From the NCBI GenBank assembly GCA_004376295.1, contig SOJZ01000029.1, positions 1 to 64,000 on the forward strand: a stretch of 64,000 bases of DNA, written 5' to 3'. This document shows, piece by piece, positions 301-51,180 of this stretch. A program made the translations under genes and the position numbers. The stretch comes from Candidatus Bathyarchaeota archaeon. GTDB lineage: Archaea; Thermoproteota; Bathyarchaeia; Bathyarchaeales; Bathyarchaeaceae. The notes beneath the pieces are model-generated. The model ran no database searches, had not been told where the DNA came from, and was given only the letters and a program-made list of their open reading frames with translations. Numbering within the stretch: the first letter of the stretch is position 1; every line of letters begins with the position of its first letter.

Positions 301-1094
301 TAAACTTTCGATATTTTGAAGTATATTTCGTATGTGTAAGTAATTTTGGGATTTTTTATCTCCCACAGAATCTCTGTATTATCTTTCATGAAAATAGGCT
401 TGAATTTGTTTGTAATGCGTTCTATCTCTAGTACGTCTATTAGTCCATTGTATTGGATTACTTTTATGTTGAGAGCCTCTTTTACGAATTGGTAATTTGA
501 AGGGGCTCTTATTGAAAGTTCTAGTGAATTGGTTGGATGCATTATAGCATGTGACGTCCATTCTTTTTCTAAAGCTTTGGAGTATACCCCTTCCAAACAA
601 ACGGTGTACTCGTAAGTAAAAGCTCTATTTGGCTTGATCGGGGATTGAGGATTTATGTAGAGATCGGTTGAATTATCAAAAGGCGGGGTCTTTCCCCCAG
701 GTATCTTGTGCAAACCGTACGTCTCCAATTCAGGTTTCAAGTGGTCACCGTTAATTTTCACAACTACGTCCTTTCTGGAGAGAGGGGCACCACTGTACTT
801 CAAAAAATGTCTAAGTCGTCGCATGGGGCTTTGTCTATTTCTACAATCGAAAAAGAAGCTAATCTTTGCGTCACCTTTTTGGTTCAATATATCTATTGTC
901 TTTCGGACTCGTCTGTAGCGCATTATTGTTGGCTGTGTAGAAACCTCTTCCTTAAGTTGTCTTAGCTTCTCAAGCAAACGAACAATTTCTGGTGTAACCG
1001 TATAATATCGTGGTTCACCGCGAATAACTCCCTTTATAGGTATCTCTTGCGCGCGCGCACGAGATTCTTGCGCATGTTCTCTGTTCGTAACCAA
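300..1094 (-). CDS. Hypothetical protein, 264 aa
   Basis: The open frame covers 264 residues and ends in ...YEIYFKISKV. I do not recognise a family. The first 70 residues are charged, with a probable helical stretch (residues 35-70, rich in R, L, E, K). The remainder is rich in aromatic and beta-branched residues, suggesting a beta-rich domain. It has no signal peptide or membrane segment and few cysteines. It lies inside the segment that interrupts the DUF3788-like gene, on the same strand as the HtrA-like protease upstream, so the two may have travelled together. The frame is long and free of rare features, so it is probably a real gene. Confidence 0.6.
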   Translation of the reverse strand: MVTNREHAQESRARAQEIPIKGVIRGEPRYYTVTPEIVRLLEKLRQLKEEVSTQPTIMRYRRVRKTIDILNQKGDAKISFFFDCRNRQSPMRRLRHFLKYSGAPLSRKDVVVKINGDHLKPELETYGLHKIPGGKTPPFDNSTDLYINPQSPIKPNRAFTYEYTVCLEGVYSKALEKEWTSHAIMHPTNSLELSIRAPSNYQFVKEALNIKVIQYNGLIDVLEIERITNKFKPIFMKDNTEILWEIKNPKITYTYEIYFKISKV

Positions 1095-50288: not shown

Positions 50289-50432
50289 ATGCCTAGAGAC
50301 CCTGTTTGCGGCGCGGTTCTGAACGAAAAAACAGCTAAATTTAAGATCAAGCATGAAGGAGAAAATTACTATTTCTGTAGTGTGAAATGCAAGAAGAGAT
50401 TCAAAAGGAATCGAAGGAAGTTTGTAAAGTAG
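50289..50432 (+). CDS. 47-residue YHS/TRASH metal-binding protein
   Basis: The short gene encodes MPRDPVCGAVLNEKTAKF and then YYFCSVKCKKRFKRN: the YHS-domain pattern (DPVCG...FCS..C...F) seen in metal-sensing and heavy-metal ATPase tails. It lies 11 bp after the OB-fold gene, so they are probably co-transcribed. It may be a small copper or other metal carrier. The identification is from the motif. Confidence 0.7.
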   Translation: MPRDPVCGAVLNEKTAKFKIKHEGENYYFCSVKCKKRFKRNRRKFVK

Positions 50433-50560
50433 ACTGGATTCTTCCTGTGCACTCAGTACGCATACATAAATTAACTTAATGTTGATGAAGCGTTTCGGAA
50501 CATCATCCACACCGTTTTCACAGTTTTTTTGTTAGCTCACCCGTGTTCTTCAATACAGAT

Positions 50561-50657
50561 GCCATCTTTCGCTATCTTTTCGTATCTTTTCCTATCTTTC
50601 TATATCTTTTTGTATCTTTCTGCATCTTTCCCCATCTATTCCCATCTAATCCTATCG
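50561..50657 (+). repeat. 10-bp phased ATCT repeat array
   Basis: ATCT recurs at exactly 10-bp spacing nine times, with a tenth ATCG (units such as ATCTTTCGCT, ATCTTTTCGT, ATCTTTTCCT). The spacers are pyrimidine-rich and variable. A 10-bp period puts every unit on one face of the helix, which suggests a curved or phased protein-binding DNA array rather than coding sequence. It lies between the YHS gene and the GNAT gene. Confidence 0.8.
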
Positions 50658-50720
50658 TGGGATAAACCGTTTTCAAGCTTAATTTCAAAAAACCAACAAA
50701 ATACAAGCTTTGTGAAAAAC

Positions 50721-50773
50721 TAAAAAAATTATAGGGGGGTCTAATAAGAGAGACTAGTGCAAATAACGGGACA
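50721..50773 (+). promoter_or_regulatory. Shared upstream element, copy B (GNAT gene)
   Basis: AAAAAATTATAGGGGGGTCT, then AATAAGAGAGAC and TGCAAATA, matches copy A upstream of gap. It ends 81 bp before the GNAT ATG. A TATA-like CCTTATAAC lies in between, about 50 bp upstream of the ATG. Confidence 0.5.
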
Positions 50774-50853
50774 GAATAGTCAACTTTTCAGAGAAAGCCT
50801 TATAACATAGCAACGTTTTCTTGTGGCAATCTTCCAGAAAGGAGAATTACGCT

Positions 50854-51180
50854 ATGCAGATTGTCAAGGAACCACGTGGACACCAAACGCTCTACCGACT
50901 TGTAGACAATCTAGATTGTATGCTAGGTCGAGCAATAACCTCAGAAACCACTGAAGAAGTCAGACTACACGAAATCTACGTAAAGCCTGAACATCGCGGA
51001 AAAGGCTACGGAAGTACACTCATGCAAGCAATCCTCAACGGAGACAAAACAAAACTGATAACATTATGCACAGGATTCACAAACATTCCATTCTTCAAAC
51101 AACACGACTTTGAAGTAACAGAAACCCGTGACAGCCTAGTTCTTATGAGCAGAAAAACGCTAACCCCCAAGATACAGTAA
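50854..51180 (+). CDS. GNAT-family acetyltransferase
   Basis: This 108-residue compact N-acetyltransferase has the acetyl-CoA pyrophosphate loop motif IYVKPEHRGKGYGSTLM (R/QxxGxG/A type) and a C-terminal strand pair (FFKQHDFEVTETRDSLVLM). The ATG at 50854 follows AGGAG by eight bases; the upstream TTG would add residues with no similarity. The substrate is unknown. Its leader shares an element with the gap gene. Confidence 0.85.
   Translation: MQIVKEPRGHQTLYRLVDNLDCMLGRAITSETTEEVRLHEIYVKPEHRGKGYGSTLMQAILNGDKTKLITLCTGFTNIPFFKQHDFEVTETRDSLVLMSRKTLTPKIQ

Follow-up and report, generated by a model that had tools for sequence, protein, structure and literature searches.

A dispersed intergenic repeat with a fixed 10-bp internal period in a Bathyarchaeota genome, its sister species and a predicted virus contig

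The BrickBuilt MITE of Porphyromonas gingivalis, as the cited extract describes it, is built from a leader, a tandem minisatellite and a tail, and is present in 19 copies, always intergenic, with a limited host range (PMC4596501). The element reported here shares the leader-minisatellite-tail architecture, the intergenic copies and the narrow host range; in contrast to BrickBuilt as presented in that extract (23-bp unit, inverted-repeat ends), its unit is 10 bp long, its ends lack inverted repeats, it comes with alternative modules, its host is an archaeon and one copy lies on a predicted virus (PMC4596501). Like prokaryotic MITEs, archaeal ones included, it is short, non-coding, multi-copy and intergenic, mixed with nested copies, whereas against the features given in the extract cited no terminal repeats or target duplication have been demonstrated here, and no source transposase is known (PMC10969869). 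Borgs likewise combine archaeal mobile DNA with tandem repeats that evolve fast, although those repeats arise independently according to the part of the source cited, whereas the arrays reported here form a single family that shares its units and is spread over a chromosome (PMC9879509). Finally, A/T-rich and G/C-rich dinucleotides phased at 10 bp recall archaeal nucleosome positioning sequences as outlined in the cited extract, but the offset in our arrays is no better than that of permuted units (PMC3691661). We found no description of this element family in the open-access literature, most subscription journals lying outside that scope. With this element, an uncultured archaeal group has a family of intergenic repeats that are dispersed, change fast and keep an unusual, fixed internal period of 10 bp, and through the virus-contig copy host and virus are linked. 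Repeats of this kind disrupt assemblies, occur at apparent rearrangement points and precede important genes, which makes them relevant to the plasticity of Bathyarchaeota genomes and possibly to gene control.

The window, i.e., the whole stretch of DNA that was analyzed, covers 64,000 nucleotides of contig SOJZ01000029.1 from Candidatus Bathyarchaeota archaeon. Its array consists of nine ATCT followed by one ATCG, with starts at 50564, 50574 ... 50654 and nine intervals of exactly 10 bp each, which confirms the regularity reported in an initial annotation of this DNA. When ATCT runs were scored at spacings of 5-30 bp, the longest run in the real window was 9 (spacing 10), compared to a maximum of 3 among 50 dinucleotide-preserving shuffles of the window, and Tandem Repeats Finder detected the same array. 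The annotation also described the spacers as variable, and this holds in part: letters do vary, but ATCTTT is kept in units 1-7, so that much of the “spacer” is in fact conserved, and those letters that do vary are restricted to a small unit set common to 18 other arrays of the genome. The OB-fold and YHS genes beside the array were missed by our home-made gene caller, and the GNAT protein has a 96% identical orthologue in the sister species. Far from the array, at 259-300, the window also holds a perfect 21-bp tandem duplication (AGAATGGGTGACGCCACAAGC).

Table 1. Positions of the element's modules and of the neighboring genes in the window.
Feature	Position	Strand	Remarks
YHS-domain gene	50289..50432	+	Upstream neighbor of the array; outside the element
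End of 5'-I module (...TTCTTCAATACAGATGCC)	50539..50563	+	Common to other copies, whose alignments start at 50539
10-bp array	50564..50657	+	9 units ATCTTTNNNN / ATCTATTCCC / ATCTAATCCT, then terminal ATCG
3'-I module (CGTGGGATAAACC...AAGCTT...AAGCTTTGTG...)	50656..50731	+	24-25 aligned copies in two species
D module TATAGGGGGGTCTAATAAGAGAGA	50730..50753	+	Also without array at ~20 further genome sites
E motif (consensus CGCAAATAACGTAACAAA)	50758..50775	+	Last shared stretch of the element
Small GNAT acetyltransferase gene	50854..51180	+	Downstream neighbor of the array; outside the element

Similar arrays are present both in the window's own genome (G000; 1.89 Mb, 44 contigs) and in a sister species (G003), which answers the search that the annotation had proposed. 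Four ATCT spaced 10 bp apart, used as a search pattern, gave 69 overlapping matches in G000 (40 forward, 29 reverse) and 0 in a reversed control of the same genome, and a DNA search with the window region returned 34 matches, 20 of them (self included) spanning 74-414 bp with E < 1e-25. By one common rule, sites number 42 in G000 and 41 in G003, and ATCT arrays occupy 19 of the 42 G000 sites. The annotation would have given way to a recent tandem duplication with no similar array in relatives; a relative does carry such arrays, and a single local duplication is rejected, the 19 arrays being spread over many contigs.

Broadly speaking, the element reads as a 5'-I or 5'-II module, the 10-bp array, a 3'-I or 3'-II module, then TAGGGGGGTCTA..AGAGAGAGAC and finally CGCAAATAACGTAACAAA. 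The 3' module is of type I (TGGGATAAACC...) or type II (TGACTTAAGCAATATT...), and types can be mixed, with 5'-I joined to 3'-II on contig C17 and 5'-II to 3'-I on C24. At the window copy, the remainder of the 5'-I module is missing. The D module (TATAGGGGGGTCTA..AGAGAGAGAC) sometimes stands in two or three tandem copies, and without a core it is often the palindrome GACCCCCCTAGGTAGGGGGGTC, while the E motif is matched at 12 or more of its 18 positions in 36 of the 42 G000 sites. These sites are intergenic with the exception of C31_89773, which falls within an ORF and probably matches by chance.

With a length of up to ~400 bp, the element is short, non-coding, multi-copy and intergenic as MITEs are, and its tandem repeat (2-10 units per array) between shared 5' and 3' modules has the architecture of BrickBuilt. 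Tested for terminal inverted repeats, its ends have none: the CCCCCCTA/TAGGGGGG arms are internal, with shared sequence extending ~40 bp past them on the right, and for this reason we do not file the element as a MITE. A target-site duplication could not be demonstrated, as no fully empty orthologous site was found (both G003 loci tested already contain the D module, and one is split over two contig ends), and the neighbors tested included no transposase, recombinase or other mover. Taken together, we consider it likely that the element is a non-autonomous, recombination-prone dispersed repeat with a fast-evolving internal 10-bp minisatellite, and the ATCT array is best read as part of this spreading repeat rather than as a purpose-built histone track.

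The composition of the arrays was analyzed across the 27 with a readable end (19 from G000 and 8 from G003, a ninth G003 array being excluded because it runs into a contig end). Overall, 193 of 194 units are 10 bp long and 30 distinct units occur, with positions 1, 3, and 4 nearly invariant and positions 7-10 the most variable (mostly C/T, some G or A). Neighbor order is common to loci, with 80 distinct pairs of adjacent units among 167, compared to a mean of 120 expected when units are shuffled within arrays, and most of the spacer variation was therefore inherited from common ancestral arrays. Arrays may change length by gain or loss of whole 10-bp units, which would keep the period, and such turnover explains the rigid spacing without selection for helical face. 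The initial annotation had deduced such selection from a conserved phase combined with variable spacers, a deduction that finds no support once spacers are inherited and whole units come and go. The lack of indels in the arrays does resemble constraint, but as a test of phase selection the deficit is not significant against both modules; all 25 copies of the 3'-I module of the same element are likewise free of indels. At some sites the ATCT type is replaced by a related array of CCTTTTCC units that is also periodic at ~10 bp.

Comparison with the sister species suggests that these cores turn over fast. The G003 flanks of element sites are mostly 92-97% identical to those of G000, and at 15 G000 sites both flanks match one G003 site. 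Fourteen array sites have a right flank that matches a G003 D site, 12 of which are readable (the other two start at the first bases of their contig). The inference of fast turnover comes from 7 of these 12, where the G003 orthologue has neither the ATCT array nor any other; two more have an array of the CCTTTTCC type, and three have an ATCT array, namely the window site (fewer units), C4_48195 (other units) and C39_39790 (short). In the orthologue of C16_62042, both flanks are retained and the core is precisely gone between a C-rich and a G-rich arm. D sites are mostly common to both species, changes being seen at existing sites with no direct view of spread to new ones.

Flanks appear to have been exchanged at three places (C28_70182; C4_71936 with C25_2184, reciprocally; and C23_29792 with C23_38031), and together with the mixed 5'/3' combinations these exchanges point to recombination. 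Copies may move between sites via recombination or gene conversion. Alternatively, the exchanges could be metagenome assembly errors, several of the G003 sites being at contig ends. Between C23:29792-38044 of G000 and C42:127605-135859 of G003, swapped flanks enclose the L22 gene, an arrangement that an 8-kb inversion between inverted copies would produce.

The exact three-spacing pattern, to which diverged arrays are invisible, was found in 4 of the 256 genomes of the class (G000, G003, G012 and G026) and was absent from two other genomes of the same genus (G001 and G002). The G012 contig shares 99% identity with a G000 locus, and horizontal spread to genus g10 is rejected on this ground; this contig is probably misbinned or from the same species as G000. 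A scan of genome contigs for arrays yielded at least 119 stretches, and its loci (L146-L264) were screened by script together with those from virus contigs (L265-L300), where the array pattern had 36 matches. One virus contig, L266, has a type II copy that includes the array and the D module. Over 1,875 bp it matches contig C40 of MAG G026 with 100% identity, and one of the two pattern-bearing contigs of G026 is this virus contig. With a large terminase (phrog_2, E 3.5e-48) and a weak tail match, L266 is predicted from its sequence to belong to a head-tail virus, and a virus perhaps seeded the copies. Two other virus contigs with the 3'-I pattern (L360 and L361) are chance matches in unrelated sequence, and the element had no match in plasmid and phage collections.

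The virus copy raises the question of what the arrays do. On L266, a gene for a 97-aa protein (453..746) reads away from the array and abuts the 5'-II end, and the 5'-II module proves to be the start of this gene; remnants of the gene start flank arrays at G000 C41_59157 (frameshifted) and C16_20070 and at G003 C44, while other copies keep shorter pieces. The arrays could then be the operator of an AbrB-like regulator, viral or once viral, that represses itself by cooperative binding, with the chromosomal copies as relics or decoys. The protein does show weak similarity to AbrB (TIGR01439, 20.7 bits, E 2.5e-4, under the curated cut-off of 28.3, so that membership of the family is not assigned; PDB 2glw, E 1, with both halves aligned). 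Against this, Pfam and PHROGs gave no match, nor did phages in the collections searched, the predicted structure is poor (mean pLDDT 65) and without a credible fold match, one of the remnants is frameshifted, the viral copy is single and binding is purely putative, and we think an operator origin unlikely. A wider proposal, in which the cooperative operator of a small regulator from a head-tail virus of Bathyarchaeota later came to lie, along with its recombining modules, ahead of host housekeeping genes (rRNA, ribosomal proteins, Alba, proteasome) and so formed a virus-derived, rapidly rewired regulon, is about as unlikely. Position relative to genes would also fit a plainer role, in which phased, intrinsically curved or cooperatively bound DNA ahead of core promoters tunes downstream transcription. 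At the 18 G000 array sites whose right flank can be read (the nineteenth stops at a contig end), the right-hand gene is co-oriented in 15 cases (L22, 23S rRNA, proteasome subunit, radical SAM, epimerase, NTP transferase, beta-helix protein, a small protein at C39_33843, L7Ae, winged-helix regulator, Alba, methylmalonyl-CoA mutase, malic enzyme, AFOR and the GNAT of the window) and convergent in three (M54 peptidase, DUF4152, S12). Where the co-oriented gene lies < 320 bp away, the D site is often ~80-200 bp before the start codon, and all four clear tandem contexts point at the downstream gene. Four cases are too few, however (two-sided sign test p 0.125), and divergent gaps say nothing on orientation, so a true orientation bias is suggested rather than established. 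Neighbors were checked with Pfam; the home-made gene caller and codon-position conservation gave noisy orientation statistics. Arrays are furthermore missing from 7 of the 12 readable orthologues, and sites without an array precede genes as well; the neighboring genes would seem not to need the element, and a regulatory array appears doubtful to us. Co-orientation nevertheless counts against a neutral-repeat reading, as a purely neutral repeat need not show it.

Structural roles were weighed on the same arrays. Curvature had been put forward in the initial annotation, and a wedge model (the 19 of 27 arrays that are at least 70 bp long) indeed predicts mean bends of 96 degrees over ~80 bp, above the 49 degrees of shuffled sequences, compared to 145 for a phased A6 control. 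Exact phase adds little to the bend in this model, as the phase-broken control still reaches 81 degrees. The array may therefore bend DNA, which is also consistent with the regulatory possibility above, and it may have protein bound. The annotation's other suggestion, archaeal histone positioning, is conceivable in that G000 encodes a histone-fold protein (one match, gene at C21:9127), and WW and SS dinucleotides are 10-bp phased with an offset of 4.0 bp and A/T-only pentamers are few (31 of 1766 vs. 214 expected from composition), similar to the archaeal code in the cited extract (PMC3691661). Specific support is lacking, though: 57.5% of position-permuted units also give an offset of 4-6 bp, the arrays are labile and nothing links their location to chromatin, which makes a positioning element very improbable. 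Curvature and histone binding, as proposed there, are possible rather than demonstrated. A structured non-coding RNA with a repetitive single-stranded part would fit the conserved flanking modules and the long terminal GACCCCCCUA/UAGGGGGGUC pairing seen in one fold, but double changes occur at 0 of 10 pairs in 3'-I and 1 of 14 in 5'-I, the fold z is -0.33 and the element has no Rfam match; without useful covariation or a stable fold, we rejected this reading as extremely unlikely.

Several further observations concern individual loci. An association with tRNA genes, hinted at by ORF endings, was rejected, as ARAGORN detected a single tRNA across the 18 G000 loci submitted. On C24, the array adjoins a nucleotidyltransferase fragment (E 0.0017, below cut-off) that has a HEPN gene next to it, and in the corresponding stretch L075 (3227-3469) the start of the nucleotidyltransferase runs into the array beside the HEPN gene, as if the element had cut a toxin-antitoxin-like pair. 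In L070 (3654-6724 and 1402-1704), the 23S rRNA gene stands alone with an element upstream of it, the end of the array being ~410 bp from the start of the rRNA, a second copy faces the first beyond the gene, and RNase P RNA is close by. A Hydrothermarchaeota record (L154, WAQR01000276.1) has at ~300-400 two GGGGTCTACAAAGAG motifs in a row next to a few ATCTTT units, arranged differently from the copies here, which may be a distant relative or chance.
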